NCBI GenBank assembly: GCA_021234155.1 | Contig: JAJEKV010000080.1 | Coordinates: 1,100,182 to 1,164,181 of the forward strand | From: Isoetes taiwanensis | Lineage: Eukaryota; Streptophyta; Lycopodiopsida; Isoetales; Isoetaceae | Direction: 5' to 3' | DNA length: 64,000 nt | Shown: positions 6,949-62,780 of the stretch, in pieces | Layout of the letters: each line of letters begins with the position of its first letter | How positions within the stretch are numbered: position 1 is the stretch's first letter | Notes under the pieces: model-generated | What the model was told of the DNA's origin: nothing | What the model saw: only the letters and a program-made list of their open reading frames with translations | Database searches by the model: none | Position numbers and translations under genes: made by a program

Positions 6949-8943
6949 GTTGAAGGACGTCAGACTTTATTCAATCAAAGAGTCAAATACAAGTATAAAT
7001 GCAGAGACAGGAATAAAATCTCAGCGGATAAGCGGAGACCCACCGAGTGAAGCAACCTGCCTAAGCATAAGAGTGCACATCCAACAACTCCTCAAAAATC
7101 AATCGCCTCTTGCGAGGGGCAAGTGAAGAACAATGATACGACTTTACAATGTAACCTTGAGCTTCTTGGAGAACACGATTATCCGCCACATCCGCACCTT
7201 TGAAGATTACCGTCTTCGTCTTTTCCAGATAGTCCAAAGCAACCATCCCGGCTGCTAGATGAAAAGCCCGGCCTTGTAACTCGGGTCCGTGTACTTGGGT
7301 AAATTGCCAAAAGCGGTTGTTGACTTGTTAGTGAAACCTGAAAAGGGAAAACAACCAGTCCCATACCTGCCTAAGGTGTTCACACATGAAAAAGCAATGC
7401 TCAATGGTCTCGATCCACGCTTGCATACGTGATACACGATTTGATATTCTAGGGTTAAACTTATGGACAAGCACATTAACCCGCAGACATCTATGAAGAA
7501 TCTGCCACCAAAGAACTGCCACTTTAGGATGAAGTAGCTTGTCCCATGCCCAAGACCACACCTTCTGCCATTGAAGAGGAGGAAGTTGAAGAGACCACTT
7601 ATTAGACGGAGGAAGAACATCAGTATCAAGCAACAACTGATACATAGAGTTCACAAGTTTGCACTCCTTAATTTCTTCATGACAAACCCATGCCAAAATA
7701 TCTTCTTGAAAGTCTTGCTGGTACATCATACACCTCTCTGCTTTCTGAGTACAGGGCCTGCTTGAAATATGGCATCCTGCACTGATAATCTGATACAGAG
7801 CTGGGAGGGGCGGATCAGACAAAAATCCTCTGCGGAGATTGAAGTGCATGAAGACTTTATAAAGACAAGTGACGATGTGATATTTAGATGTTTGTTTGGC
7901 TCCCAGTCTGAGAATGGGAAACAATATTTTCAGCTGGCAAGAAAACTGTTGAGTGCTTATCCAAGGTAAACAGTTCTCAAGTAAGTTAAAAGCAAAGCAG
8001 AAAAAAAAATTGTTGAAAACATTTTGATGATTGTGGCTGAGAGTATTTATCTTGTAGTTTTGTGTCTACAAAAGTGAGCCAGATTTCAAGAAAAATAGAC
8101 AGCTGCATCTTGGAAATAGTAGACAAATGCAAGGAAAACATAGCAAAGGGATGCCATGGGAATGAAATTTTGGCATCCATTTTGAAGGTTGGGGGAGAGG
8201 AGTTTGGCACCAAGGAAGCAGTTGAAGAATGCAAGACATTACTCATTGCGGGCCACGCGACAATCGTAGCTCAACACCTAACATGGACTATCATGTTGCT
8301 TGGATTGCACCAAGATTGGCAAGAGAAGGCTTACCAAGAAGTCAAAAGTGTATTCCAAGGAAGTGATGCCTCCAATCAAGAAATGCTTCATAAAATTGTA
8401 AGTGAAAAGTTGTTGGAGTCTGTCGAACAGTTTGGACTTTAGCTAACGAGACATTTTGTATGTTAACATATTTGTTTGTTCATTTTGTCTTTAGATCACC
8501 ATGATCATCTATGAATCATTGCGCCTTTATCCTCCTGGTACTTATACCACAAGGCACGCCGTGAAGGACATGCAGTTGGGTGATGAGACACCCATTTTTA
8601 TACCCAAGGGGTTGTCTATAGGAATTAATGTTCTAAAAATTCATCACGACCCAAGCAACTGGGGCCCTAATGTCAATGTGTTCGACCCGGAGAGATTCTC
8701 ACAAGAGTTTTTAAGGCATGTAAGAACTCATTTGGAGGTTATCTTCCCTTTCTCATGGGTTCTCGAGTTTGTGTTGGACAATCCTTGGCTTTCCATGAGG
8801 CCAAGATCGTCCTCTCATCATTGTTGCTTAGGTTCCAGTGGCACCTCTCCCCCAACTATAAACATGCCCCTCAACTTGGCCTTACACTTCAACCCCGACA
8901 TGGCATCCCTATTATTATAACACGAAGAACTCCCTTACAATGA
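6074..8943 (+). pseudogene. cytochrome P450 (CYP72-clan-like) pseudogene, five exons
   Basis: P450 monooxygenase relic, originally ER-anchored. Exons are near 6074-6338 (hydrophobic N-terminal anchor then GIPCPPYTFMDGHFTE), 6427-6598 (ending GKGLLMASGENWVRK), 7755-7965, 8058-8397 (I-helix AGHATIVAQHLTWT where AGxET is expected) and 8495-8943 (ESLRLYPP of the K-helix ExxR, then heme loop FLMGSRVCVGQ). Introns have GT..AG ends. Breaks are a frameshift near 6480-6490, a short deletion at the start of exon 3, loss of the I-helix Glu/Thr pair, and a frameshift near 8720-8750 just before the heme Cys. A LINE sits in intron 2 (6922-7703). The exon layout and PPG-type motif after ESLR suit the CYP72 clan; the exact family is uncertain. 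It is not functional as read. Confidence 0.85.
6922..7703 (-). mobile_element. 5'-truncated LINE (L1-like) insertion with TSD
   Basis: A poly-T run at 6922-6948 marks the poly-A tail of a minus-strand LINE. It is flanked by the 12-bp duplication CTTGAAAGTCTT at 6910-6921 and 7704-7715. The minus strand encodes the C-terminal RT-associated zinc domain (zf-RVT): WSWAWDKLLHPKVAVLWWQ, then IETIEHCFFMCEH. The rest of ORF2 is missing, as is usual after incomplete target-primed reverse transcription. Removing the insert restores a continuous P450 intron ending GAGTACAG. Confidence 0.92.
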
Positions 8944-14976: not shown

Positions 14977-16465
14977 TTTCTTTTCTTTTCTTTTTTTTTG
15001 AGAGAAAGAAGCTTTTTAGTCATTAATTATAGAAAACAATTACATATTGTCATAGGCATATCCAAAATGATAAGCCAAAATATTCAAGCTAATAATAATA
15101 AAAAAGTTTTAAGTAGCTTGAAAAAGCAGGAACTTGAAAATTCTGGAATTTAGCAGTGAAGATATGTATAGATCCAATGAAGTCAGTCTAGAAGTGAATC
15201 CAGAACTCCTTAGCAGCTGATCCTCTGTATGAAGATAGAATATGTGATGTATTGAACCTGGCAAAAGAAAAAAAGTCAGAAGTTATAGGAAGTCAAGAAG
15301 TGAAAGTGGTCTCGAATGAAAGGTTGGTAAATGGGGATTTGATTGTTCCCCCAGTCAACCAGCTCAATGAGTCTAACAGAGTTGCAGGTGGCCATAAGAT
15401 GGATCAGGGGTCCCAAAGCAATCATCGTCCCCTATGATAATAATAGCTCTCTGTAGAGTTCAAACTGGCTTCGGTCATTTCTCTCGCCATATCTATAAAT
15501 GAACCACCATATTGTTTGTCATTAGGTGAGTGCCTTTACGAGGAATTCTGCCCAAAGAACTTCCCTTTGTGGAACCTCGCTTAATTTATCCATTAGCTGC
15601 CCTTTGGTCCCAAATCCGTAAAACCGCCATCATGATTGAATTGAAATGTATCATTCCTGTTTCTTTCTAGTCTTGCCATTATGTTCTCTTCAGCACTGTC
15701 ATATTGGAGATCAAGCTTGAACTTGCAATTCCAAAGGTAATCTAGCAACAACAGCATTTGAATTAGTAACATGATCATGACAATGAAGTTTAAAGCTATT
15801 AAAGGCACCAGCAAAGTTTCCCAACAGATTCCATTTGTTGTCATATTTTTCAAAGATATTTATTTTTGTGAGCAAAGGGCCATCATTTCAATGTAAAAAA
15901 TGATTTGAAGTTTTATCCAAACAATAGAAATTCGATGACCACCATGAAGACACCTATTTCTGTGTTTCCAGATATTCCAAAGAATGATGTAACAGATTGA
16001 ATTCTTAAGCAAATCATTATTAGAGAGAAATTCAATAATATTTCTAGGCCTAGGAATATCAAAGATATTAAAAATCCAAACCCATAAGGTGTCTAAATTT
16101 TGACATGTAAAAATATGCTGAGCATTTTCAATTGAATTACAGCCAATGGGACATAGCTGAGAAATAACATGATCTGGTCTCGAATAAATTCTGTGAATAA
16201 GCTCCAAACAAGGAATACTTTTGTTAGCTAACAACCAAGCAAAATAGGTAATCTTAGGCTGGCAATAATTTCTCCAAATACTCTTGAAGAGCACAGATTC
16301 AAATTCAGGATTTATATTCCAGTACTTGGCAGCTTTAGACTTAGGAGAATCTTGAGTTAAGTAGGCATAAATGCTGGAGACTTTGTAGATCTTCTTTCCT
16401 CCACAAGACCAATGAATATTGCACTCAGAATTGGGATCAATTTTAATATTTCTCAAAGATCTCAT
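14977..16465 (-). mobile_element. 5'-truncated LINE with zf-RVT domain
   Basis: A T-rich tract at about 14977-14999 gives the minus-strand 3' tail, followed by about 590 bp of 3' UTR-like sequence. The minus-strand frame at 15860-16465 (201 aa) is an RT-associated zinc-binding domain: FKSIWRNYCQPKITYFAWLL, LELIHRIYSRPDHV, CPIGCNSIENAQHIFTC, then IILWNIWKHRNRCLHGG. A second short frame at 15593-15853 continues the tail after a stop. The RT and endonuclease are absent. No clear target-site duplication was found. Confidence 0.8.
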
Positions 16466-16689
16466 AATATGATCATAGATAAAGATAAAGATAAATATTT
16501 TAACGTCATGCCACTAGGCAGCGTCCTAAGACATGTGACGGCAGAACAGGTGACCGAAGTCCAAAATAGAGCAAAAAAAAGGGGGGGTTGGCCCCAACAC
16601 AGAACAAAAGAGGACAAAATCCATCACTACACAATATACATACTATGGGCAAACGCCCAAAGCAAATCACGGCCGTTCACGCTGAGAAA

Positions 16690-27582: not shown

Positions 27583-29124
27583 TGTGACGCTCCCTGTATA
27601 TATACGACACCCAGCCGTATACATACAGGGACTTTCCCCTCCCATGGCAACCAACTTGCCATGAGCAGGGCCCTCCGTCTATTTCGGGCCATCTATGAAA
27701 TGATGCCCGAAAGAAGGACACGAAGGGGTCATTCGGCCCACGCCTTCAATGGGACTCCTACGTCACGGAAGCATGAATACAAGGGTTAGCACACAGCATA
27801 AATTATATATAAATAACCACCACGAAGGGTGGTGCATCCATCCAAATACCAACGGCATAGAATATGCATCTAACCTAAGAAAACACCCAAACCCCAGGTT
27901 CTACCCCGGCTCAGACTCCAGTGAGGATCGAATGACTACTGGGCCTCAAGAGATCAATGACCGAGTCTTGGCATGGCGTTAGGCGCATAGAACATCGGCT
28001 AGGGTTGTCCGCTCCATCCGCCCCTCCCAGCACACTTTGCGGATGGGTCAATTCATGCTATGGCTTTGCTATAGCCTTCCCGAAGACGCAGGTTCTAGGG
28101 ATCACCCTTTGAGCCTACTCCGTGTTCATGGCCTTTGGTCCGATGAGGCAGGTGGAAGCGTCCCCTTCCGTAATCACAAAGTGGTTCCATGGGTGAGCTA
28201 GAGAATACGTGCCGCATCAGGTGACCCCGCATCCGTGCAGACTTACTCACCCTAAATCTACTCAAAGTGCAAGGTGCTCCATACGGATCACACCTCTACA
28301 CCCGTGGGGAGTGTCGGACCCATACCCGCCCCTCGTGGCCCGGCTATCGAGGCCCTAGCCCATCAGAGGAGTCTCGTGGGCCTTGTATGCTCATGCAAGA
28401 CCCCACCCCTCATGTCACCACTTTGTGTTCCTTGTCCGGTGCTAAGCCGCACCATAGCATCTAGGACCCTGGGTTCTTGTGCACAGTGCCGCAACTAATG
28501 GGAATAATACAAGGGCTCTATCCAGAGCATACTACAATACATGGGCTCGTGAGGTCTCTACCCCCGTAATCCCCATCTCCTGTGCTAACTAAGCAAAGAA
28601 CTACTAAACCATCAACCAAAGCACGTACAGAGACTAGAGATAAAGAATACTCACCATATCAATCAAGGGTTAGCCTAACAAGTAAACCACAAAGAAAACA
28701 GAGAGAGAACACACCACAGAGAGGCGCTATGCTATAAATCGACATAGTAACCCATCTTGACTAACCGTCAAATCGGTCTTGGGCTGCTCCATCTCGACTA
28801 ACCGAAGGGCGCTCGACTCGCTCCTCCTCCTCCATCCCCAATTGCTCCCAATTCGAATTGGGGCACAAAAGCCCTAATTTGGGTGTCCAAAATGGAAACC
28901 ATGCCTTGCCCAATCGATTTGGGCCAAGTGGCATCCCCTTGTTGGTGCTAATTAACTAATTTAGCTTAATTAGGGTAATTAGGCTATATACTTTATAATT
29001 ATCCACAATGGATTTATTAACATAGCTAAATAAAACCATTGTGGTCGGCCCACTTAGCCAATTACCCCTTATGTCCTAGTGACGTGTCCCGCATACGATA
29101 CCGTATGAATGCCCGAACGCCACA
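27583..29124 (-). repeat. 3' LTR (in element sense) of the 15-kb retrotransposon
   Basis: 1542 bp, with TGTGACG at one edge and CGCCACA at the other. It matches 40985-42547 along its whole length with scattered substitutions and small indels. No coding sequence is recognised. Confidence 0.88.
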
Positions 29125-32342: not shown

Positions 32343-35300
32343 TTATTATTATTATTATTATTGTCACGCCTTCAGACCCTCAGGTCTATCAGCAAAAAAG
32401 TACAGCAATATTCAGTCAACAAGGGCTCACCGTTAGGTGAGCAAATTTTCAGCCATTTTATATAATGCTAATAGCTCATCTCTCGATTTCAAGTATTCAT
32501 ATAGGTAAGCTCCAAGTTCGAATGGGGGTAAATCTAACAGATTTGAAAAAGAGCCACATGTAATATTGTGACTTTCTCGAATATGATCGAAAGCCGAACA
32601 TCTAATCAATGCATGTTCTTCATCCTCCACTTGTGTTTCAAAACAACATTGACAAAAGCGCAACTCTCTTGGAATCTTTTGCTCTCGCCCTTTTTCAATC
32701 TGTAAAGAGTGAGAACTGAGCCTAAGTTTAGCAATTACCTGACGCTTTTTCCGGCTAAGCTCCGCCTTTAAGTAGCCTTGCTCCTCGTATATTACCATCG
32801 CATTAACTTCTTGCCTATAGAAATTTCTTTTAACCCCAAGATCACCACGTGGCCACATCTTCTGTAATGCTCGCTCAATCACAAATGCACGTAACCCCAC
32901 ATCTGTGTCTGGGAGATCATTGAGATCTATACCCCAAAATGTCACCCAATCCACAAGATGACTATACCACCCTGCATGACGCTGTAACTGGGATTCTAGC
33001 AGTGCCTGTCTGGGTATCCTAATGTCATCCATACTCTGTATCCTCTGGTAATAGGTTAGGGTTTGAAACAATGCTTCTACCTCCAAAGGATATAATCCTG
33101 CCTCTGCTAGTAGCATCTCATAGGGAGTTTGCACTTTTACCCCCAGCTCCTCCACCAGAAATCTCTTCTGCACCTGTTCAATCTCTAGCCACTTTGCCCT
33201 GGCCAAACCTGGCCCCCAAGCTGGACAACCATAAAGTACAACTGTTTGCACCATCACTTTGAACATAAGCCTCCTAAGAGACCAACTCCAAATGTTTCTC
33301 TGGCGCCATAAACTGAGGGAGTAATACAAAGCACCTGAGACCTCCGGACACTCGTTTCCCCGCTCCCATTGACCACTTGTAATCATTAGTAAACTTCGAT
33401 CCCTAAATATTTATACTTTGTTTTACTTGTTCCAAAATTTCCCCATCCAGATACATCACCACTGAATCTCGAGAGCCAACCACCATAACTTTGGTTTTAT
33501 TTTTATTCACTTTCATACCTGTTTTTTCGCAGAACTGCTCAAGCACATACAACAAACGTTGCAAACCCATTTCTGTCTTAGATACCAGTACCACATCATC
33601 GGGCGTAAGCGAAGCTTCTTGAAGATAATCCCCAACCTCCACTCCTACATCCCTCTCATCCATGCCTCAAGCTCATCGATAAAAGGCCAAAAAGTGTAGG
33701 TGATAAAGGACACCCTCTTCACCCCTATATTGCTCTCCACCTTCTCTAATCCATCTAATGGGAATGTGAGTTCCACCAATACTTTTTTCATACAGCCGAA
33801 GCAATCGCCTTTTGAGTGAGAGTGGCACTCCCAATTTCTCCAGTCGTGCCCCCAATTGTGTAATGAGGCACTCTATCAAATGCTTTCGTAAAATCAACAA
33901 AGCAAAGAATATAATGCATTACCGCACCCTTAGCTCCCTCGCCATGATGCGCCAAAGTCACTAAGTGGTCCACGATTAGGAGTGATCTCTGCGAAAAAAC
34001 CTGCTGGCATAAGGCTCGCCCCCGCATATCTGCCCAAAGATGAAATTTTTTTCTCAAGTACAAAATTCAAAGGCTTAGCCATCCCACTACTAATCATAAT
34101 AGTGCGATAATTCGAACACAAAGTCGGATCTCCGGCTTTTCGGGATAGTTACAATCCGCTCAAGCACCATTGGTTGGGAAAACCCGTTAAAAGCCAAGTT
34201 AAACACCTCGGCCACTTTAGCATGAAGAATTTCTCCTCCCCATTTAAGCATCTCAACGGCAAAACCTTCGGGATCATGAGCTTTTCCATTCGCCATCTTT
34301 TGCAAAGATAGCTTAACATCCTCGGCATCAAATATATCCGCACGCCTCCGTGCTCTAAATCCATAGGAGCCGCCCACATCTTGTATAAAGTTCACGGGCA
34401 TAATCTAGTAACTCATGTCTCACGAAATCTCCCCTCGCATTAGATGCAAAGGTTTCGATTTAGCCCAAAAATCTCTAGGAAAATGCTGGAGTTCTTGTGC
34501 AAGCTTCTCTTGCCATTCCTTTTCCCATATCCTTTTTTTCCTTTTTGTGATCTTCTTAAATTTCTTTCTAGCATCCAGTTTTGCATATGACTGATAGAAG
34601 GCACGCCTGGCTTCTACACATTCTTCATCCCACCACGGTTGGCATTTTCTTAGGTGCACACCACCTTTAGTCTTTCCAAAAACACTAGAGGCCACTGCAT
34701 ACATTGTATTCATAAGCAATGTATTTTTTTCTACCAAATCTCCTGACCAGTCAATATCTTGAAGAGCTTTCTCTAATTCTATTGCATAATCTGCTGCCTT
34801 TTTCCATCTGCACTTTACCTTACCCTGTGGGGCGCTTTTAATACTTGCTTTGCTCAGCTTTAAAGACAGATTGAATTTTAATGCAGCATGATCTGATTCA
34901 GGTTCTGCCTCCACTCTAAAATCATCTACGAGCCTCAGCCAAGCAGGTTCTCCCACTAGATAATCCACCACACTAGCCCCTTGTGGTCGAACACAAGTCA
35001 TGCTGCAAGAGGAGGGAAATTTAGGTATACCATTCAGAATTACCATTTCAGAAGCCTCGCAAAGCTGAAGCACAAGATTACCCATATCATTTTCCACCGT
35101 ATCGTCAGATAATCTTTGCCAACCTGCTAATTTCATCTCATAAGCGGATAATTCCTGCAACCATAAATCTCTTATCCCTTCCAATTTGATACCTGCTTGG
35201 TGCTGAGCAATCCGACCATTAAAATCCCCAGCCAAAAACACTGGTCCTTTCAATTTAAATTCAGCAATGTCACGTGCAAGATGTATAAATGGATCTTCGG

Positions 35301-36450
35301 CAGTAATACCTGATTGGTTGTATACAGAACTATCTGGAGGAGCAAAATATACCACTGCAACATAAACCACAGTTTGCCCTCTAATTTCTAGCCACATGTA
35401 TTGTTTAAATTCACATGTTTTGACTACTTTTATCATTTGGGCATACTGCTGGCGCGCATAACAGGCAATGCCACCAAAGCCTCTGCCTCTTCCCGTGCCT
35501 TTTATATTCCATACTGATTCTATCAGTGCAAAACCTGGTAGATTTCCCAATCTACTAGTCTCATGTTCCCATGTTTCTACAATGACAAACAAGTCCACTG
35601 TTTCTAAAATTGATGCAATCGTAACTTGTTTCTGTCGCTCAAACCATTAATATTCCATATCATGCACCGAGGGTCCCGAGTTCCTATTCATCACTCTTAG
35701 CCTGTCCTCCGTTTTCTTTTATCCACAACCTTGCCTCCTTGAATGTATGCATGCTTTCCTTTCTTTATACGCCGCATCTTTTGCAATTTACCCTTAAATT
35801 CCTCTTCTTTCTTCTGAAAGTTAAATCATCGTTTAACCAAAGATTACGTCCTTTCAAAGACACTCTTGTTAAACATGACTCGTTCGAACTTGCAAGTTTT
35901 GAAACTTAATTATGATTGGCCTCGGTTTACCCATTTGTTTTTTTTCCCACACGGAAACAATCCGACAAAACCGAGGATCATGTAGGTGCATTGTATTCTC
36001 AAAAAGTCATTCCGGCTTTTTGTCACATCTACTTCTTCTTCGAAGGCGGCGACTTAATATTCATTAAACATTAGCGGGCTTGCTCTTCTCTCATGACATT
36101 GCTAACACAAGATTCTACATGCTCAGCGATTTTTTCTACTTTGTCATTGCCTTCTACTTCTCTCTTCTCCTGATCAATTTTAATCTCTTCTACATAATTC
36201 CCCACTGATCCCAACTTTTCCTTTACTGATTTTAATTCAGTATTTGCAGCTATCAGCTCTTGCTTCACAGATTTTAAATCAGTGTTTGCAGACACGAGTT
36301 CCTGTTTCATAATGCCAATTTCATGTTTCAAACTGCCAATTTCACTTTGCAATTGACTAACCTTTTCATGCAGTTGGAGTTTTTCCATGTCCTGAGCTGC
36401 TAACCGAGCATCCTCTGCCTCCCATCTTGACTGCAACATTCAAAGGGATC
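32343..36450 (-). mobile_element. near full-length LINE with ORF1, endonuclease and RT (decayed)
   Basis: Minus strand. ORF1 at 36071-36439 is a 122-aa coiled coil (repeated LKSVKQEL-type heptads). ORF2 starts near 35598 with an AP-like endonuclease: VETWEHE, FLAGDFNGRI and ESDHAALKF carry the catalytic residues, and it ends RKCQPWWDEECVEARRAFY. RT follows in broken frames: GFAVEMLKWGGEIL, NYRTIMISSGMAKP, CFVDFTKAFDRVPH (motif A) and LTPDDVVLVSKTEMGL, where the YADD box has become TPDD. The C-terminal part, 32433-33386, is open (VVLYGCPAWGPGLARAKWLE, then RFCQCC..EDEEHALIRC). A (AAT)n tail at 32343-32362 marks the 3' end. This type resembles Jockey/CR1-like LINEs rather than plant L1. Confidence 0.85.
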
Positions 36451-40984: not shown

Positions 40985-42547
40985 TCAGGACGCTCCTCAT
41001 ATATATATCGACACCCACCCGTATACATACGGGGACTTTCCTCCCATGGCAACCAACTTGCCATGAGCGGGGCTCCTCCGCTATTTCGGGCCATCTATGA
41101 AATGATGCCCGAAAGAAGGACACGAAAAGGGTCATTCGCCCACGCCTTCAATGGGACTCCTACGTCCGCGGAAGCATGAATACAAGGGTTAGCACACGGC
41201 ATAAATTATATATAAATAACCACCACGAAGGGTGGCGATCCATCCAAATACCAACGGCATAGAATATGCATCTAACCTAAGAAAACACCCAAACCCCAGG
41301 TTCTACCCCGGCTCAGACTCCAGTGAGGATCGACTGACGGCTGGGCCTCAAGAGATCAGCAGACCGAGTCTTGGCATGGCGCTAGGCGGCATAGAACATC
41401 GGCTAGGGTTGTCCACTCCATCCGCCCCTCACATTGCACACTTTGCAGATGGGTCAATTCATGCTATGGCTTTGCTATAGCCTTCCTGAGACGCAGGTTC
41501 TAGGGATCACCCTTTTGAGCCTACTCTGTGTTCATGGCGCCTTGGTCCGATGAGGCGGCAGGTCGGGAAGCGTCCCCTTCCGTAATCATCTGGGTTCCAT
41601 GGGTGAGCTAGAGAATAACGTGCCGCATCGGCGACCCCCCCATCCGTGCAGGCTTACTCACCCTAAATCTACTCAAAGTGCAAGGTGCTCCATACGGATC
41701 ACACCTCTACACCCGTGGAGTGTCGGACCCATACCCGCCCTCGTGGACCGGCTATCGCCCTAGCCCAATTGTAGGAGTCTCGGGGAGCCTTGTATGCTCA
41801 TGCAAGACCCCACCCCTCATGTCACCACTTGTGTTCCTTGTGCGGTGCTAAGCCGACCATAGCATCTAGGACCCCGGGTTCTTGTGCACTGAGCCGCAAC
41901 AACTAATGGGAATAATCTGGGGCTCTATCCGGGATACATACTACAATACATGGGCTCGAGAGGTCTCTACCCCCGTAATCCCCATCTCCTGTGAGTGCTA
42001 ACTAAGCAAAGAACTACTAAACCATCAACCAAAGCACGTACAGAGACTAGAGATAAAGAATACTCACCATATCAATCAAGGGTTAGCCTAACAAGTAAAC
42101 CACAAAGAAAACAGAGAGAGAACACACCACAGAGAGGCGCTATGCTATAAATCGACATAGTAACCTACTGACTAACCGTCAAATCGGTCTTGGGCTGCTC
42201 CATCTCGACTAACTGAAGGGCGCCTGACTGCTGCTCCTCCTCCTCCATCCCCAATTGCTCCCAATTCGAATTGGGGCACAAAAGCCCTAATTTGGGTGTC
42301 CAAAATGGAAACCATGCCTTGCCCAATCGATTTGGGCCAAGTGGCATCCCCTTGTTGGTGCTAATTAACTAATTTAGCTTAATTAGGGTAATTAGGCTAT
42401 ATACTTTATAATTATCCACAATGGATTTATTAACATAGCTAAATAAAACCATTGTGGTCGACGCCCACTTAGCCAATTACCCCCTTATGTCCTAGTGACG
42501 TGTCCCGGCGTGCATACGTATACCGTATGAATGCCTGGAACGTCACA
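40985..42547 (-). repeat. 5' LTR (in element sense) of the 15-kb retrotransposon
   Basis: Direct copy of 27583-29124, ending CGTCACA at 42547, followed by the GGAAA target duplication. Its inner edge next to the primer site is mutated (GTCCTGA for GTCACA). Confidence 0.85.
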
Positions 42548-51600: not shown

Positions 51601-52489
51601 CAACCGCAGGTTTTAGAAATTTCAAGAGCAATAGCCTGTCTTGGAAGTGTAGGGGTGTAAATTTTTGGAAGGTTTATTTCCTTAGGGTTTATGGTCTTTT
51701 TTTCCTTTTTTTTGCAAATTCAAGTTAACCAGCAATTTACCCGCATCATCGTAGCCCCCACAACATTCTGATAACGAGAAAGGTTTAACTAACTTCCACT
51801 TCTTGATATCATCCTCAAACATGGTGATATTTAACTTGATATTAACATCGATATCAAACCTTTCGATTATTAACAATACGATGTCGATGGTACAAGGTAA
51901 ATTGTACACGATAGAAGGAAAAAAAACTAATGCTACAAGATAAATTGTACACCATGTGATCTACATATTAACTAGGAAATCAAGAGAACAAAAAAATATA
52001 ACAAAAAATAAGTGCATGGCTAGATATGAGGATAAAAATATCGCGAATAAGGGGCAATGTAGCCATGCATTTATATGATCTGGATGCAACATTTTCTCTT
52101 CTGCAATTCCTCAATCATGCGAACGCAACATTGATGCCTATATTTATGCTTACATTGATGCCAACAACCAACATTGATGCAAAGAATGTTACCATCGAGA
52201 TTAAGCTTCGAACATTTGCCTATTGTAAATTTTTTTACTGTAACATAAACCCTGAACTCACCCTAAACCCGGTACTGGTAGTTCCGGCCTGGACCTGCGA
52301 TCCAGCAAGGCGATCCTTGCTTCCAATTTTGTGCAGGTGTGGGAGTTCAAATCACTATCTCTATTTCTGCAGATTCGTAGGGTCGACCACTATCACTATC
52401 TCTGGTTTTGATTTCCGTTTGCGAATCCCTGTTTGCAGTGTTGTAAATCACTGTTTTTAAGATTGGTTCAGAATTGGACTTGAGGAAGT
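51601..52489. other. no gene recognised
   Basis: AT-rich sequence with a plus-strand open frame at 52026-52460 that resembles no family. It may include the edge of the transposon or of the VID27 fragment. Confidence 0.35.
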
Positions 52490-53060
52490 TGGAAAGACTG
52501 TGTCAGAATGGAAATTTGAGAAGGAATGGAAATTTGAGAAAAACCTTGCAGAGCCTGTTTTACGATCTGAGGTTGGAGCATTTATTGTCAATGGCTGCGA
52601 TTATAGAAGAGGCCACGGTGAAGTAGTATTTATGCCATTGATCCTGTTGAACCTGGATTGTTTGCTTGCTAAACTATATGAAGGAATCAGCAAGACAGCA
52701 GATTGATGAATGGTTGGTTTATAATAGAGCTTCATGCTTTCGCTCATATTTACTGCAGAGAGTGGTTTGAATAGCGCATGACTATTAGTGACCATGTTAT
52801 GCATCTGCCTCAACGATAGCAAGACTGCATTTCCTGGACTTGGATCAGCCATCACAGCTATTGATACTACGTTTGATGGGAAGTGGGTTCTTGCTATTAC
52901 AGATAATTATTTAATTCTTATTAATACCACTTTCAAGGACAAGGATGGAGAGCTTAAAACAGGGTTTACGGGTCGCATGGGAAACAAGATTTCTGCTCCT
53001 AGGCTGCTGAAGCTTACGCCTATTGATGCATATCTTGCCGGAGAGAATCAGAACCTAGCC
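52490..53060 (+). pseudogene. VID27/CYPRO4-like WD40 protein fragment
   Basis: Plus strand: VSEWKFEKEWKFEKN near 52500, then, after a disrupted gap, [60 protein letters not shown] and [11 protein letters not shown]. This is the C-terminal beta-propeller part of plant VID27-like (CYPRO4) proteins. The segment between the first two blocks is degraded, and the end diverges after GENQN. It is a fragment lying next to the 3' end of the transposase gene. Confidence 0.8.
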
Positions 53061-53561
53061 CCTAATCTTGCCGGAGTGACACAGTCTTTCCATTCTGACA
53101 CAGTCTTTCCAACCCTTGTCAAAGACATATCATCATTACATCGTTTTGTATTTAACTTCATAATCCAGAGACATTTTAACATTACAGGTCAAAGGACATC
53201 TTGAATCAGTCAATGTGGATCAGAATTATTGTCACTGCTAGTTGAATATCACGAAGTACGACCACAGAAGATTATATTCTTCAAGGTAGGTTCACACGCC
53301 TATATCTTGTATAACTTGTTGTTTGGTCTCAATTTTTAATGTTGTGATAAACCTGAAAATGGAAGCTTTGAAGCTAGATAGCTTGTCCTTTTATGAATGT
53401 GAGCTGAACTTTGTGCTTTACTATAAATGACATATATTGCTGAAAAAACATTGCTTCATAGAGAAAAAATCAAAATAGAAAGCTTCATAGAGCAGAAATC
53501 AAAATAGATAGCCCTAAACCATACTATTATGTACTGAAAAGTTCATATCTAATATGCATCC

Positions 53562-56500
53562 TTAAACACGGGTCTTCATAGGAGCAAACCTTCCTAACAG
53601 CATATTCAAATACTCTTTTGAAAGTACTAGTTGGGTGGGGGAAATGTCATTTCTGGGATCAACTCCTAGGACGTGACAGATGACGTAGGGGAGGTGCTTG
53701 CATGGCACGTACTTCTTTTTTTTCTCATGTCCCATATAATCAGCACATGTGCAAGGAGGCATGCGATTGATAGAAACTCTATAAGTTGCAGTAGGTCTTT
53801 TAAGATGGAAATCCACATGTTGTGAAGGTATGACCACCTCAATCATCTCCACATCAACTTCCATATGCATGGCATCATCTAATCTGGCCATGACATCATG
53901 TGCTAGTTGCTTTCGCTTGTACATCCTTTTTCCAAATCTAAGCATGACACTGCTAGCAGTTTCTTGTGTTGCCTGAGTTGATGGCATGTCTATGTTAGGC
54001 ATGCCATTCATATTAACACCACGAATGGTGTATCCTCCTTTTTCCAACCTTCTTAATTCCCCTTTCAACACTGGCCAATCCCTTGGTCGTTCAGGTATGT
54101 CTAAAAGACACTTTTTGGGATTCCAAGTATGCTCCATGTGATCTGGACAAAACCATATCCATTGCCTACTTTGTCCTTTTGGATGTACAATAGTACCATA
54201 GTAACTTGGAGCAGCTGTGGCATGAGGGCCAGAATTTATAAAGGCATTGCATTTTTTATTGCGTGGCTCTTTTAGGCCCTGGCAACGAGCTTTACTTGTA
54301 GCATATGTGTGTCTAATTGCCCAAGAGTTATCTTCTACCTGTATTTCACAGACATTGAACATAATTCCAAAGTTTAGTGTCTTTCTTGTATCATCATCCA
54401 CTACAAATCTTGGACGATTATAAGCAAACTTGTCTGGTCGGTGAGAACCAGAATTACTATTGTTATATTCAACTGAAGATCTACATCTCTTCAAAACTGT
54501 TTTATCATTTCCACCAGATGTTGGTGGTCGAGTTGGAAGACCACATCTGATAGTTTCAGCATGAACAGCCTCGACGCATTTTCTAGGGGTAATACCGCTA
54601 TTGATGGTCGAACTTAATCGTGCCATCATGTCTGTCACACCTGGCCCAACACCGACATAATGTTTGTCACTGTATGCCTTGGCTTTGGAGCATTGTAGCA
54701 CAGCCTCAGTAAGGTCAAACAGGCATGCATCATAAAGATTCAAGGTACGCTTGTACCCGGTCGCTATCAACCAACTTCCATGTCTTGATTCAGAAAGATT
54801 AGTACTAGGTACGTGAATTGCTGCACTGATGTCCTTCTCTGATATCATATAATTACCCCATCTGGAAACTCTCTGATGCCACCAAGATAACCAATTAGCT
54901 AGACAAGGTAAATTACTTTCAGAAACTTTACCTGGCCACCAGTCAATGATTTCATTATAAACTGACTCTGCTTCCTTTGCTGTCACACATCTTTGCCATT
55001 TCGTACACAAGGATAAATGGGCTGATCTAAACTCTTCAAAGACGTATTTGTTTGTATGTCTTTGTAGGCATTGATGGAAATGGAAGACACAATATCTCTC
55101 CCGACCAGTCAGCTCTTGACCATTGTTATATATTTCTTGAATTGCATTCCAATTCGCTTGTGCCTTGTCTGCCATAAATCCATAAAATTGAGGAGGTTGA
55201 AAACCCTTTGAAAGCATGATCTTATTTATTTTTTTCCAAAACTTCTGCTGGGCCAGACAATCCTCTGTCTTCATCTCACATGTGGCTATGGTTAGAAGAG
55301 ACCGCATCCTACATATGTTGACATTGCATTAGTAGTTAGTATACATGAAATCAACAATTGGAGTGACAGATACAATGAACTTACCCTGGATCATAAACAT
55401 GGCAAGCCAAAGTAGTCCACCCACTTATTCGCTTCACATGGTCAAAGTGCACCCATGATTTGCCAAGATCTCCACCAGGCCTCATCCTATTCACCAGGTC
55501 CACACCAGAACCTGGTCCTGTAGAAGACATCTTAAATATGTAGCAATTTTCCATCTCATTTATGTGAAGTTGATGTGAGAACTTAGATCCCCAAAAATAC
55601 TGAAACTTGCAATGTTGCTTGAGATAGATAATTTTATTATAATCATCTGATCCAATCTTGCAATTGTCCCGACACTTATCTATCCATCTCCTTAGCCTGT
55701 TAAACTATCAAAAAAGTTAGGTTTGGACATGACATAGAAATTATTACATATGGTGAAATATTTTACACTCAATACCTGGATTGATTGCACAGTGGTTCCA
55801 GCTTTTCTAGAAACTCCTCGACCTGCTTTTTATCCCATGTCTGGCTCTTCTCAATGTCAGCTTCAGATATCAAATTCTTACTTACTATTTCAAATGCTAT
55901 CTCATGTTGTGTTTGTCTTGGCCCAACTCGATGGCCGCCTTTGGCATGTGTCTCAACCAAGGCACGAACGCTTGCAAGTTCTTCTCTACTGGCCGCGACC
56001 TTAGTCGGATGCAGGTGTTCCCCAATGTGAAAAGCAAGTCTTGTATGTGTATCATTCTTTGTGAGGCAGTAGTGCATAGTGACAGGACATTGTGATATGC
56101 ATACTGGTACTTCCTTGCAATATGCACAACAAAGGGATCCATAGAACTCAGGAATTTCTCCAACATGCGGCCTGGTCTTGAGGCTGCCCTTCCAATGAAC
56201 TTCATTTTCTTCCACATGTGAGAGATAGAAATCACATGATGGATTTAGACATTTTAGATGACCACAACAGTATGAAAGTCTTACAACCCCAGGGAATATA
56301 GGAATGGTAGTATGCGACGGGTCAGTCCATATATGGGGATCCATATTTTGTTGCATACCAGCCATTGTAGACCATGCATCTGAACGGGGTGGTAGTTCGA
56401 AGACTACATTGCCATTACAATGGGGTGGCAATGTTTTTACAGATAGAGGCTTCTTTACTAAATGAAAGAAATTTTTTAATTTGCTTCCCCCAATACTATT

Positions 56501-56743
56501 CAAAATTAGTTGGAAACTGGAGACAATATTATCACCCTTGCTACCTTGATTAGATGACGGTGAAAGAACTGGTATTGGGGTGTCAACTGTATTCACAAGA
56601 ACTGGTGCTCCAAACACTGTAATGTTGGTTCCAAAACTTTCGTGAAATTCAAAAATCAATTCACAGTTATCATTCTTTTTTTCTTTCACAACAGTTGTCA
56701 ATTCATCTGCACTCTCAGATGATTTAGATTGCACTACACACAA
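53562..56743 (-). CDS. MULE/KDZ-like transposase with N-terminal Cys/His domain and SWIM finger
   Basis: Three exons: 56743-55776, 55696-55385 and 55308-53562, with GT..AG introns that rejoin in frame (NQS-R-LRRW and YDP-G-MRSL). No stop or frameshift is seen. The N-terminal part has a Cys/His cluster (CCGHLKCLNPSCDFYLSH, CCAYCKEVPVCISQC, then FHIGEHLHP), like the HxH-ending zinc fingers of MULE/KDZ transposases. The core has SWVHFDHVKR, HVYDPG, GFMADKAQANWNAI (candidate catalytic Asp at about 55168), YCVFHFHQC (C..H) and STNLSESRHGSW (candidate Glu). The C-terminus has a SWIM finger, CTCADYMG..YVPCKH. The frame stays open upstream of 56743 to about 56929 without an ATG (first in-frame ATG at 56365), so an extra 5' exon is likely. 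Confidence 0.82.
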
Positions 56744-57463
56744 TGACCCTTGTTTGAATCCGAAAGACTGGCAAATAAGACTTGCACTAACCTCGCATAC
56801 ACCTTTAGAAAAAGGAACTTGAAGACTATGGCGCTTACCAAGAGATGTGATAGAGATAGATGATCCATAGTAGCTAGCTTTGGTAATGCGACAAAGTATG
56901 AATGAATCTGTTTCCTTTTATTAACTGTACCACTACGAAATATGGTAATTACAATACGAATTTTGTTATGATATTATTTTTAATTGGTGGCACATTGCAT
57001 TTTCGTATTGCTTAAAGATATCACAGATAAAATTAATTATTGGGGTTATACGAAATATGTTTGAGAAATGTTACAAAATTCACTATTTTAATATTTATAT
57101 AATATTGTTTTTATTTTTTGGTATAGTATTTAAAGTTCGAGACTACTGAAGGCTTGTTGTGGTATCACAGTATGCTAAAGGCGCTTCACTATCCCTCAAG
57201 GTAAACGGAATCATCTTCGTTATGCTTGTCCAGTAACTCAAGTAGGTGAATTTGTCCACTAACTCAAGTAGCTGTAGATTAGTTTGGTAGATCAATATAG
57301 ATTGTTGATCATTTGTAATCCCTCAATTAATGAATTATTATAATTCTTTTGTAAATGTTCTTTCAATTTTTTTTCCTAGTGTTTCCAGTTTTTCTTTCAA
57401 TAGTTCTTTCAAACGTTTCAAAGTTTGAATTTATAATACGATTTTTTTTAATGATGTATTTTT

Positions 57464-58162
57464 GGGGCTGCGGCGCCATAGCCCCTAATTATGCTTAAAA
57501 ACTTTGTAGACTTGAAATTATAAAAGTAAAATTTAAAAATTATCAATTTAATATTTGAATATTAAATTTTTAATATAATTTTTCTTAATGATCTATTTTT
57601 GGGGCTGCGGCGCCATAGCCCCTAAATATACTTAAAAAATACGAATTTTAAAATAAAAAAACAAAGTAATTATTAATTAAATTTATAAACTTATAAATTT
57701 TTAAGTTTTTAGTTTTAATGGCGAAACTGGGGGCTGCGGCGCCATAGCCCCTAATTATGCTTAAAAAATACGAATTTTAAAATAAAAAAACAAAGTAATT
57801 ATTAATTAAATTTATAAATTTATAAACTTATAAATGTTTAAGTTTTTAGTTTTAATGGCGAAACTGGGGGCTGCGGCGTCATAGCCCCTAATTATGCTTA
57901 AAAAATAAGAATTTTAAAATAAAAAAATAAAGTTATTATTAATTAAATTTATAAATTTATAAACTTATAAATTTTTAAGTTTTTTGTTTTAATGGCGAAA
58001 CTAGGGGCTACGGCGCCATAGCCCCTAATTATGCTTAAAAAATAAGAATTTTAAAACAAAAAAACAAAGTAATTATTAATTAAATTTATAAATTTATAAA
58101 CTTATAAATGTTTAAGTTTTTAGTTCTAATGGCGAAACTAGGGGCTGCGGCGCCATAGCCCC
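57464..58162. repeat. six-copy ~137-bp array with GC-rich palindromes
   Basis: A 22-bp near-palindrome (GGGGCT, then CGGCGCC, then AGCCCC) occurs at 57464, 57601, 57730, 57867, 58004 and 58141, spaced 137, 129, 137, 137 and 137 bp. Each copy is set in very AT-rich DNA (TTATGCTTAAAAAATA, TAATTATTAATTAAATTTAT). Copy 4 has GGCGTC for GGCGCC and copy 5 has CTACGG. The array ends about 180 bp before the methyltransferase start and lies about 0.5-1.1 kb from the transposase 5' side. It is a candidate binding or regulatory array. Confidence 0.92.
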
Positions 58163-58340
58163 TAAATATGCTTAAAAATAGGATTAGAAAGAAAGATTAT
58201 AAAACGATTTGATATTAAAATAAGAAAGATTATGGATATACTTGTTATTTTTCAATTTTGTGCTTATTTAACTGATATTGTTTTCTCTTCTCAACAGTCA
58301 CTGCAGATGCTGCTATATTTGTGGATGTCAACATCTTGGT

Positions 58341-61300
58341 ATGGTGTCAACCCGTACTGATCCAAATTATAAGCAAGCAGTTTGGACACCACCAAAAAGA
58401 AGAAAGAGATTAAAAAAATTACCTTGTGAGTTGTCAGAAAAGATGTCTGAGATGGAAGTCAGTATCGAGAGAAATGTAGAAGAGACACAAGAGACAAGCA
58501 TGACTGACAAATCTGATGTTGATCCTAGCGCATTAGAGGCGTCTGCGGAAACACAGACTCCTTTACCAATTTCACAGATTTCTAAAAAAAACAAGGACAA
58601 GAAAAAACAAGTAGATGCACTTGATGATCAGACCCTAGATGTAGTTGATGCTGCATTTACTGCTGAAATTGTGTCTGATTTATTGCAACAGGTAAGAATT
58701 AGCAGGGCTACTCCACCACCTCTTATACCTTTGTGTAGGATATTGAAGCATGAGGCAGTTAGAACTGTTGCATCAAATACGTCCAACATGAAAGAAACTT
58801 TTAGAAAGGATGGATACATTATGGAAAAAGGGTCTTTCATTCTATCAATACTAACTCCACGTCAGGAAAGCATACCAGTGGATGATGGGATTCTAGCAAG
58901 TTGGTTGGAGACAAGTAAATGATGCCTTTGAGGAAAGCATTTTACAGTCTGAAGATTGGAAAGATCTATCAGGTAAAATGTTTCTGTGTTGGGATGGCAA
59001 TCATAGAGCAGCTGCTTGGATGCAAGAGATTAAGTGTCACTATCAGTGGAACGCAGACAAGCATGTTTCTGTTCATGCAACTTTCATTGACATAGATCAC
59101 TCTCAAGAAACACCTCTTCTAGCTGCCTTGAATCGAATAAATGAGTAAGTTTTTCGTTTAATATACTTTTGCTAATTCGTGTAGTGTTTTTTTCCATACT
59201 AATTTTGTAGTTCTATAGGTTGAATGAAGTGGGTGTAGTTCGTACTACGCTGAAAGACACATTGTTCAGCGTGCATCGAGTTGCAAATTCAAATCCAGAG
59301 AAGTATGCTGAACGCCTACGTGCTGAATTTTTAAAGTCCTTGAGGTCCAAGGAGAGTATTTCTACCTCAAGTGGCAGTGCAACTGAAGCATGGTATCCAT
59401 TGACGCGACTTGCATATGCCAAGATATTATACCAGGTATTTCCTTTCTTTGTAGTCTTTCAAGTTTTTAATTTACCACACACTTGGATTCCTACTGACTA
59501 TGAATAATTCATATAGCAAAACATAAACAGAGATATTGAATTGGAAGTTAAGAGTTATCCATCAATCAAGGAAAGCCCTGAAGAGATTGAAAACATTTGT
59601 AAAAGGAAAGTGTATGAAAGATGGCAACAGAAATTAGGAAAGTATTTGGCTATTCTAAATCCAGCCTTGGGGTTAAGTTGGTTAACTGCTGTGACAACTA
59701 TGGAAACACAATCCAGACACATGAAAATAACAGTTGAAAAACTGTTAGAAATGGTGAAGGCCAAAGTCCCAAACAATGTTAGAGACAGATGGATGCATTG
59801 GCTGACATCAGGAGCTGCCTTGACAAGTACATACATGATTCCTGATAATGATAAGCAGTTCAGGGAATGGGTGAAAAAGGAAACTTGGCTTGAGCATGTG
59901 CTAAAGAGGAGCTTGGGCTTTTATGAGAGCACAAAAATAGACTTCGACTTGACCTTGGATGTGCCAAGAGGGGAAGACATAGAAGGTTGGTTCCGGAATT
60001 TCAAGCTAGATTATCGAAAGGAAATGTTTAGTACTATTGAGAAGCATATGAGTTCAACCTTGCCCTTCACCGAGGCCTATGACTTGGACAAATGTGCTAT
60101 GCGAGTTTGTTTCAGGTACTGATATTCAATATTTTTACATGCTTTTTTGTCTAGAATTTATAACTTTGATTTTTAATTCAGATATTACAAGCACATTGTC
60201 AGCAAAGGCTACGCAGTTTCTCTACCAAGGGAGATGACTTCTTGGAATAAAAAAGAAGCCCCAAAAATGTTTTCTAAGTACAATCTAGATAGAAAAGGAG
60301 GTTTATCTAGCTATGAATATGCTAACTGCCCTTGGTGGATTGATTTCCCAGATGGAAAATATCCTAAAGAAGAGGAGGAAGAATGGAGAAATCAACAGGT
60401 TGGTAACAAGTCTGGAAGGGAAAGCTTGAATGCCAACCATGAATCTTTCGGAGAACAGTCACCAGTATCGAAGTCCAATACCAATGCCAATATAAAAAAT
60501 GTAAGAGCTGCAAAAAGGAAACGAAAATTGGTATTGCAGGATGAACATGAGGACATTCTTACAAGTGCACAATCAGAAGGTGAGCATTCATACAAGCATT
60601 CTACTTTTGTGTGTAATGTTGATTTGGAAATGGAAGTAGGAGATGTGGTTGAGATGTGCTCTTTACTTAAATCAAGAAAGGAAAGATTATTCAGTAACAT
60701 GAGAGAGTTTGCAAAGAACCATTGCAGGTTGTTCAATAAAATAAAATTGCAGAGAAATGGTAAGTCCAGGGATTGGGGTTTAGATTTGGTTGTAATTGAT
60801 TTACCAACCAATGACATGCCCTTGCCAGGAATGAGTGTGCCGGAATGGAACTCCTGTAATGAAGATTTGGTTGATGCATGTCTGACTATTGGGAACTTGT
60901 GCCTCAATGACTCAAGCTGGTTGGTTATTATATGTGCGGATGATGAGTCTATGATGGTGAGGTCTTTTGCTATTAAAAATAATCTTGTCATCTCTCGCAA
61001 ATACACTTTGATCTATGATAAGCCCTTTGGTTATAAAGAAGATAAATTGGGGGTTTTTGAGGCAAATAACCTGGATATTTATATCATCGCACGAGATGGT
61101 AAGTCCCCTACTTTTCATTGCACAAAAGGGTTTATTGTGGGTAAGATGGAGCATAACAGGACCGTATTGAAGCAAAAGATCTGTGATTGCACAAGCCGCG
61201 GATTGCTGACAGGTGATATTGTGAACACTCTGTCATAACATTTGAATTTTTATTGGATATGTTGTGTCCAAAGGAAGGCATTGTGGTTGACCTTCTTGCA

Positions 61301-61718
61301 GGGACAGGATCATTAACAGAGGCATGTGCTAAATTTGGTTCTCACTATTTTGGTATTGAGAAGGAGGACACTTGTTGATTTTGTTAAGAACAAAAGACTA
61401 TCTAGAATTTTCGTGCAGAATGAAAATATAGAAGTACATGCGGAACCGATTAAAAATTCTAGTGGACTCATCTCTACCTTGGGAGCTGAATTGGAAGAAC
61501 CCGAATAGTAAGGTTGATAGTGTCTATCTAACTTTTATTATATTAGTTATTTGCCTCCATTGCCATCACTGACATAATTTTGTTTTCCTTGTAGTTCATT
61601 GCCTATCTATGCGGAGAGAGTGGCTATAGCAATGGCCTTAGAATCTTCCCCAGAAATGAAGGAATGTGGCAAGAGGAAGACTTCTATTTATGTGGATGAT
61701 GAGTGTGTTGAAGAGTAA
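58341..61718 (+). pseudogene. ParB-like domain plus beta-class DNA amino-methyltransferase
   Basis: Five exons: about 58341-59144, 59219-59435, 59517-60115, 60182-61502 and 61595-61718, with GT..AG introns. The start MVSTRTDPNYKQAV at 58341 is the first Met after a basic, non-family leader. Domains: a Lys/Arg-rich N-terminus; a ParB/sulfiredoxin-like fold with WDGNHRAAAW (58990-59019); a helical middle region of unknown type; then a permuted methyltransferase, with DLVVIDLPTND (60798-60812) in the place of DPPY motif IV, SSWLVIICADDES, LDIYIIARDGK, and motif I VDLLAGTGSLTEA (61286-61324) followed by FGSHYFGIEKED. This IV-then-I order is that of N6-adenine/N4-cytosine enzymes. Frameshifts near 58910, 61200-61235 and 61365 break this copy. 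Confidence 0.78.
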
Positions 61719-62179
61719 ACAATACACAACTTACTTTTCTTTATTAGCAATACATTGAAGATAAACTATGCATCCTTCTATTACATATCCACTTCCTAAC
61801 TTCTTATTAGTAATTTTGAATACTATTTCATTACATCTTCGTTAAAGTTGTTCTTCATGAATTCCTCTTTTTTTTTTTCGAAAGTGTTATTCCTTTTGCA
61901 AATGTCATCGTTATTTAAATTTACTTTGTTAACAATTGTATTCTGCTAAATTACATCTGTACATTAAAGTAAGTGGCTTCATTCTTTAAAGTAAGTGGCT
62001 TAATTTTTTAAATTTACTTTGATAACTATTATAACGTAATACAAGAACTATGAGTATTACACAGTACCTAATTCGAGTGCACCATGCTATCAATGTTAAG
62101 TAACTTATTTTTTAACAAAAAACCTAAAAAACCATGAAAAAAAAAACCTGGCTTTGAAAATCCCCGAAGTGTAGCCATA
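61719..62179. other. no gene recognised
   Basis: AT-rich flank of the methyltransferase gene, with a short duplication TTTAAAGTAAGTGGCTT near 61965-62005. I looked for an inverted match to the left flank of the transposase and found none. Confidence 0.4.
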
Positions 62180-62780
62180 TTCATAAGAACCATAGCCAAA
62201 ACAAGGATGGATGCTGAAAGAATATTGAAAACAAAAATAGACCAGAGTAAGGTTATGGAAGATAAGGAAGCTTCCCAAATTCTGTTTGCAAAAGGTAAAG
62301 GCAACGACGAAAATAGGAAAAGAGGTAAGCTTGGTAACTGCAATCAGTATGGGCGCTTGAAAATTGACTGTCCTTCAATGACCAAAGAGATTAATTGCTA
62401 TAATTGTGGGGGGATCAAATTGTTCATCTCCTAAAATTGCATCAAGAGGGAGAGAAAAAGGAGGAAGGGCAAATTTAGCAGCTAGGGGAGAGGAAGGGGA
62501 AGATTCAGAAACACAAGCTCAGAAGCAAATATAGCAGAGGAAGTGCGACTTGAAGAAGACAGTACAGGAGAGGAGGATGAGGATGAGGATGAGGTAAGAA
62601 AGCACATAGTTTTTTTTGCTAGTCATGACAAATTTGATGACAATGATTTTCTAATTTTAGATAGTGGAGCAGAAAAGTCCATTGCATGCAACTCAAAAAT
62701 CCTGAAAGAGAAGAAGGGAAGCCAAGGTGGATATATTCAAGTGGGCAATGGTGACTGTTGAGGGTAATCCTGGCAAAACC
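62180..62780 (+). mobile_element. Copia gag-protease fragment
   Basis: Plus strand: MDAERILKTKIDQSKVMEDK, then a decayed CCHC zinc knuckle (GNCNQYGRLKIDC..CYNCGG), a frame change, and an acidic linker. It ends with HIVFFASHDKFDDNDFLILD and LDSGAEKSIACNSKILKE, which is the start of the retroviral-type aspartic protease (D-S-G). It stops just after VGNGDC, so integrase and RT are missing. No LTRs were seen. Confidence 0.75.

Follow-up and report, generated by a model that had tools for sequence, protein, structure and literature searches.

In the part of PMC12477816 available to us, the Ectocarpus transposon Sola1-1_Ec32 is described as encoding a 1104-residue protein with ParB-like and N4/N6-methyltransferase domains opposite its transposase, and similar proteins in green and red algal transposons are cited there from Iyer et al. 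2011 and Petroll et al. 2025. A second point of reference is VANC, whose targets, in the sections of PMC5735166 and PMC10398659 at hand, are non-coding, tandem-repeated motifs that evolve along with the protein. The available text of PMC6446971 gives the VANDAL group a 9-bp target-site duplication (TSD) and a SWIM domain, MULE transposons in general a TSD of 8-11 bp, and describes the SWIM zinc finger as frequent in plant MULE groups. Here, we describe a two-gene transposon of the lycophyte Isoetes taiwanensis, in which a SWIM transposase and a DNA-methyltransferase-like gene point away from each other across a shared spacer. It lies in a window of 64,000 nucleotides (assembly GCA_021234155.1, contig JAJEKV010000080.1, positions 1,100,182 to 1,164,181, forward strand), whose numbering is used throughout. 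The system is not wholly new, since algal transposons with ParB-methyltransferase accessory genes have already been reported. No land-plant case of a transposase paired with a ParB-methyltransferase was found in the literature searched, most subscription papers lying outside its coverage, and the statement in an earlier note on this DNA that no plant transposon with this pair was known to it stands for land plants and falls for algae.

Both genes lie in one complete transposon, which extends from 51653 to 62165 (10,513 bp) and whose bounds come from copy comparison together with the 9-bp flanks. A perfect TSD, GAAGTGTAG on the plus strand, occupies 51644..51652 on the left and, identically, the nine bases directly after the element end on the right (62166..62174). 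Just inside it lie imperfect, T-rich terminal inverted repeats (TIRs), at 51653..51702 (plus strand) on the transposase side and 62116..62165 (minus strand) on the methyltransferase side, with approximate inner limits; of 2000 random window pairs, 7 matched or exceeded their pair score, taken over 60-mers. The second-gene-side end is fixed by copy comparison, similarity with L010 and L018 ceasing at that base (similarity with L012 ceases before it, within an A-run), and the left end resembles the transposase-side ends of L020, L021, L022, L024 and C231 (L042). Because TSD and TIRs surround both genes, the shared element is established, where the earlier note had argued from proximity; the extent proposed there, 53562..61718, takes in the genes and misses the limits of the element. 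Inverted repeats found at first were rejected as TIRs, the true ends lying outside that extent.

A scripted TSD scan of 20 loci found perfect 9-bp duplications beside TIR-like ends in five (L024, L026, L029, L036, L037), each enclosing both genes or their remnants, and a match at 8 of 9 positions at the TIR-like ends of L021. Four loci (L030, L032, L034, L035) gave one-mismatch matches only, at chance level and away from TIR-like ends, and the remaining ten of the 20 gave no match. By eye, L020 has both ends and no duplication was found there, and C231 has a duplication of 8 of 9 positions, for which the exact script test found none; L019 was rejected as a test, since its stretch breaks off before the left end is reached. 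The left arm of the window element also holds a perfect 27-bp inverted repeat (52488-52514 and 53087-53113) around a 572-bp segment, possibly a nested insertion or inversion, and both repeat arms occur in the C231 copy (L042) as well.

The pairing of the two genes is real and recurs head-to-head in the window's own genome (1,658,258,908 bases in 1110 contigs), in which each gene was searched for separately. The transposase gave at least 79 matches in at least 72 clusters (75 of 1297 candidates scored). The second gene gave at least 120 matches (49 of 1124 candidates scored); 57 of the 120 listed rows were entered, further pieces of the same places being left out, and these form 43 clusters. 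Eleven of the 43 stand head-to-head with a listed transposase (nine within 6 kb, two at 22-26 kb), which is a lower bound, one is in tandem with a transposase at 23 kb, and 31 have no transposase among the matches listed. When the best 20 of the 72 transposase loci were fetched (10 kb each, window included), the second gene was present at 16 and head-to-head in all 16. Three of the 31 second-gene loci without a listed transposase, chosen and not random, were fetched with 4 kb upstream each (L045, L046, L047), and a head-to-head transposase was found at 3 of 3: in L047 it is almost complete over the stretch fetched, the L045 copy has an internal deletion, and L046 shows residues 20-122, after which the stretch ends. 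At the loci examined no element boundary falls between the genes, and they recur together. Chance adjacency of two independent genes is rejected on the TSD, the TIRs and this co-occurrence, and a bacterial contaminant on the spliced genes, the lectin and reverse-transcriptase (RT) zinc-finger frames of the window and the many copies on large contigs.

The transposase was read on the minus strand in three exons joined by GT-AG introns into a stop-free protein of 1066 residues. The first exon (55776..56917) begins at its open-frame limit; a start codon is expected in a further exon upstream of the frame, where none was identified. The second (55385..55696; open frame, alignment) carries D466, and the third (53562..55308; alignment, SWIM profile in a relative) carries D532, C558-x2-H561, E658 and a C-terminal SWIM motif, CxC...CxH. 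Residues 170-760 found 37 relatives among 5.8 billion proteins (E values 2.8e-129 to 2.2e-60), and the alignment, with 18 of the 37 included, shows invariant blocks. Among covered copies, D466 is kept in 18 of 18, D532 in 17 of 19, C558 and H561 in 18 of 19 and E658 in 18 of 19; judged by motif, D466, D532 and E658 are the probable DDE catalytic residues. The SWIM CxC...CxH is kept in 17-19 of 18-19 covered loci. The SWIM profile PF04434 exceeded its cut-off in one of the 37 relatives (P0001, E 6.8e-5), most of which end before the C-terminal part; it matched two of three further copies below the cut-off and gave no match in the third. In MULE transposases a C(2)H motif lies between the second D and the E of the DDE triad. 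The present element has this DDE and C(2)H arrangement, a SWIM domain and a 9-bp TSD, within the 8-11 bp class. The MULE and KDZ Pfam profiles matched neither the window transposase nor the 37 relatives nor the three further copies, and for this reason we call the protein, which appears to be a transposase of the DDE type carrying a C(2)H motif and a SWIM zinc finger, MULE-like and not a proven MULE. A PDB profile search with the relatives gave no match. Among these relatives, P0005-P0037 represent a second large group with up to 83 member sequences, many of which stop near one common point, as though cut by an intron.

The second gene runs on the plus strand from an ATG at 58341 to about 61718; its frames and splice points show it to be spliced and divergent from the transposase, as the earlier note had described the pair. 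Exon 1 (58341..59144) encodes the N-terminal, ParB/Srx-like motif CWDGNHR. Exon 2 (59219..59435; frames, splice points read from the sequence) and exon 3 (59517..60115; frames) follow, and after a long insert exon 4 (60182..61500, 3' limit approximate) encodes the motif IV-like VIDLPTN and motif I, VVDLLAGTGS; a probable last exon (61597..61718) was placed by sequence only. The window copy is broken by three frameshifts, a one-base shift near 58915 in exon 1 and others near 61236 and 61370 in exon 4, and the L026 copy has long open frames.

A methyltransferase fold for the protein is supported by profile comparison. Its last piece (44 residues) matches Pfam N6_N4_Mtase with E 2e-5 and 25 bits against a curated cut-off of 26.7, and the profile is matched at E <= 1 by all five alignment members, namely the window protein and four relatives, the best reaching 3.2e-9 and the first member of the alignment only 0.011. 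Profile-profile comparison with four phage methylases aligned motifs X-I (97.2%, E 3.1e-11) and stops short of motif IV, and DpnA was the top, weak hit of a PDB profile search (E 0.0028). Motif I lies at the C-terminal end, in the beta order, which agrees with the permuted amino-DNA-methyltransferase domain named in the earlier note. ParB/Srx-like domains carry a DG.HR motif within a conserved N-terminal region, and of the 20 loci covered, 18 retain the D of CWDGNHR, 18 the H and 18 the R, although the motif counts include some places twice (C231 and C1100 each appear as two overlapping loci). The ParB label is applied to the putative domain on this motif; of the profiles that the earlier note had proposed to search, N6_N4_Mtase and SWIM (in the relative P0001) were matched, and ParB and MULE/KDZ were not. 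No homologues of the second protein were found among the 5.8 billion proteins (the 8000 candidates with most words in common in one search, 6988 candidates in another) or among viral contigs, both weak negatives, spliced plant genes being poorly represented there.

The spacer between the genes (56918..58340), which may include a 5' exon of either, contains a tandem array at 57464..58178 (plus strand; sequence reading, repeat search) with a unit of about 137 bp and six 22-bp near-palindromes, GGGGCTGCGGCGCCATAGCCCC. GGCGCC cores lie at 57472, 57609, 57738, 58012 and 58149, and one of the six copies has GGCGTC. Other subfamilies show the same core between other flanks: GAGGCACTATGGCGCCATAGCCTC in L020-L024, GGCGGCGCCGCC in L025, AGGCGGCGCCGTCC in L034, CCAGTCGGCGCCGACC in L037 and AACGGCGCCGTT in L038. 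In 15 spacers (the 16 paired loci minus L029, whose spacer is lost), GGCGCC occurs 46 times in 23.3 kb, against 1.09 expected from base composition and 5 occurrences in the remaining 126.7 kb of these loci, and ranks first in enrichment among the 64 six-base palindromes, although it was chosen after being sighted in the window and tandem duplication raises the counts. Nine of the 15 spacers hold at least two copies. Outside spacers, all 20 loci together have 19, of which 10 are in L022 and 4 in L033, both without the second gene. Complementary flanking positions average 3.9 of 8 per site inside spacers versus 1.8 outside, with 2 expected. The later-fetched spacers of L045-L047 provide a fairer test, and arrays were present in 3 of 3, with 3, 6 and 3 sites in the first kilobase and a perfect 18-bp palindrome, GGGGGCGGCGCCGCCCCC, among them; three further sites lie deeper in these stretches, two in L045 and one in L046. 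The L030 spacer has a 131-bp tandem unit carrying GTGCGCCGCCGCAC where GGCGCC would stand, possibly a different target palindrome of that subfamily.

The two protein trees also agree in their main groups. Built for the 16 paired loci, they have four groups in common: L019 with L020, L021, L023 and L024; L026, L028 and L029; L038 with L036 and L037; and L025, L034, L030, L031 and L035. The ratio of nonsynonymous to synonymous divergence (dN/dS), given for pairs with dS 0.02-1, is well below 1 for both genes in deeper pairs: in the second gene 0.18 (L030/L031) and 0.31 (L025/L034), and in the transposase 0.21 and 0.23 for these two pairs, within an overall range of 0.21 to 0.94. L036/L037 gives 0.08 for the second gene (173 codons), and other close pairs of this gene mostly give 0.3-0.8. 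As a control, L010 and L013, overlapping pieces of one place, still give dN 0.043 and dS 0.054; since they are one place, values this large can arise as noise from mapping over frameshifts, and the deeper pairs lie far above them.

Based on these observations, we favour, with modest confidence, a two-gene family of lycophyte DNA transposons whose accessory factor targets the element's own spacer palindromes by binding or marking them, in a way comparable to VANC. The transposase would move the element. The accessory protein, which combines a ParB-like motif near its N-terminus with a middle region specific to the family and an amino-DNA-methyltransferase fold of beta order, would most likely recognise the palindromes centred on GGCGCC that lie between its own family's divergent genes and, by occupying or marking them, keep the element's promoters open. 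In this manner the element could evade silencing or govern both its promoters, as VANDAL elements do through VANC; the methyltransferase may still work with its altered motif IV or may have turned into a binder. A bolder form of the proposal, which we consider doubtful, is that the ParB-methyltransferase reads the palindromes in its own divergent promoter region, as a eukaryotic parallel to ParB-parS, writes a bacterial-type mark there and so blocks host CG methylation, protein and palindrome having co-diversified across subfamilies. N4-methylcytosine would then be the product at the core, since the palindrome core contains no adenine.

Several observations weigh against self-targeting by a methyltransferase-fold factor. 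Motif IV lacks the second proline and the aromatic residue usual for the N6_N4 family, and ParB was unmatched for the second protein in Pfam, PHROGs, NCBIfam and PDB searches, so that of the ParB/Srx-like domain named in the earlier note the DGNHR motif stands without a profile match. The second gene was not found within 10 kb at 4 of the 20 transposase loci (L022, L027, L032, L033): in L022 and L032 the resemblance to their relatives breaks off inside the transposase exons, and L027 keeps the spacer and has three short matches to the second-gene frame of L035 (about 25 residues, E about 1e-5 to 1e-4), which are perhaps repeats. GGCGCC is absent from 5 of the 15 spacers (L026, L030, L031, L035, L036) and occurs once in L028, and where palindromes are present, their binding partner could just as well be the transposase or a host factor. 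L025, L030 and L035 branch differently in the two trees, inside the group that includes L034 and L031, and the correlation of distances is modest (rho 0.32, a value as high being reached in 35 of 5000 permutations). In the window's own subfamily dN/dS is 0.48-0.80, on noisy mapping.

The strongest competitor, unlikely yet serious, is that the accessory protein is a methyltransferase which has lost its catalytic activity and serves as a DNA-binding regulator or a partner of the transposase, for example by bridging the spacer array and the ends. Motif IV of N6_N4 amino-methyltransferases reads [DSN]PP[YFW], and DPPY is invariant in the four phage methylases; the motif found here, located by position, is D[LF]PTN across loci, with L or F second in 16 of 16 covered loci and T fourth in 15 of 16. 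Against loss of the enzyme, the D of motif IV is kept in 14 of 16 loci, its P and N in 16 of 16, and the glycines of motif I in 11 of 11 and 10 of 11; these retained residues, together with the low dN/dS of deeper pairs, suggest that the site is under selection. Because motif IV reads D[LF]PTN and not DPPYN, methylation (to N4-methylcytosine or N6-methyladenine) and binding alone are both possible, and the self-targeting that we favour would accommodate either.

Somewhat less probable still is that the GGCGCC palindromes serve as binding sites for the transposase or as promoter elements for host factors, with the methyltransferase-like protein acting at some other place. Plant DNA transposons with repeats to which a transposase binds are known, and since both genes diverge in parallel, change in the sites follows both proteins equally. 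The sites nevertheless sit in the spacer and are scarce elsewhere in these loci, whereas sites for a transposase should lie close to the ends, and we continue to prefer the accessory protein as their reader. A captured bacterial or phage-like passenger of no benefit to the element, a reading already disfavoured, is very improbable: gene capture is frequent among DNA transposons, the copy in the window carries frameshifts and one close pair (L021/L024) has a dN/dS of 1.17, but the head-to-head arrangement is retained across groups in which identity between second-gene pieces falls to about 30%, the main tree groups are congruent and deeper pairs give 0.18-0.31.

Elsewhere in the window, frames resembling a retrotransposon gag zinc knuckle (CYNCGG) were noted by eye at 62138-62760, at and to the right of the element end; the frame at 62138-62434 had no Pfam match. 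On the minus strand, a legume-type lectin domain frame lies at 825-1748 (Pfam E 2e-59), zf-RVT frames at 7331-8065 and 15863-16513, and an endonuclease/exonuclease/phosphatase frame at 34423-35646, the last three looking like remnants of LINE-type (long interspersed nuclear element) retrotransposons. A 1.5-kb direct repeat, 93% identical, occupies 27586-29124 and 40989-42547, with about 12 kb between the copies.

Transposons of vascular plants are silenced by cytosine methylation. The present family extends transposon-encoded accessory proteins with a putative methyltransferase fold, reported so far from algae, to a vascular plant, and its subfamily-specific palindrome arrays, as candidate target sites, make the specificity of the protein directly testable. 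If the protein does write N4-methylcytosine or N6-methyladenine, this would bear on whether a DNA mark of bacterial type, made by an enzyme, exists in vascular plants, and such a mark would have a selfish origin.

Of the known systems, VANDAL/VANC, as far as the sources at hand describe it, shares the 9-bp TSD, the SWIM domain, a second gene and tandem, subfamily-specific short motifs in non-coding DNA; the parallel drawn in the earlier note has gained from the finding that the spacer's tandem palindromes differ between subfamilies, as VANC targets do. The motifs differ here in being palindromes in an intergenic spacer, and the likeness is one of layout and motifs. VANC is not known to be a methyltransferase-fold protein. 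The four phage N6_N4 methylases (LBR48, RcPutin, Kimchi1738 and Fontainebleau) share the order motif IV ... motif X-I and the profile match over X-I with the second protein, and differ from it in their canonical DPPY and, for the four tested, in having no ParB domain in Pfam. The TET/JBP-encoding DNA transposons of fungi likewise have a DNA-modifying enzyme gene aboard, thought to counter silencing, but according to the accessible part of PMC12730594 the enzyme is a dioxygenase and not a methyltransferase, and the transposases belong to other superfamilies. Closest, on the partial descriptions available, are the algal ParB-methyltransferase transposons, which match the Isoetes element in an accessory gene of similar length on the strand opposite the transposase, a bacterial-type amino-methyltransferase domain and a ParB-like N-terminus. 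The likeness is one of description; in contrast to those Sola-1 or EnSpm systems, the host here is a lycophyte and the element has a SWIM transposase and a 9-bp TSD. It is set apart from them as well by the D[LF]PTN motif IV and by its spacer palindrome arrays, and these arrays are the new, testable part of the system.

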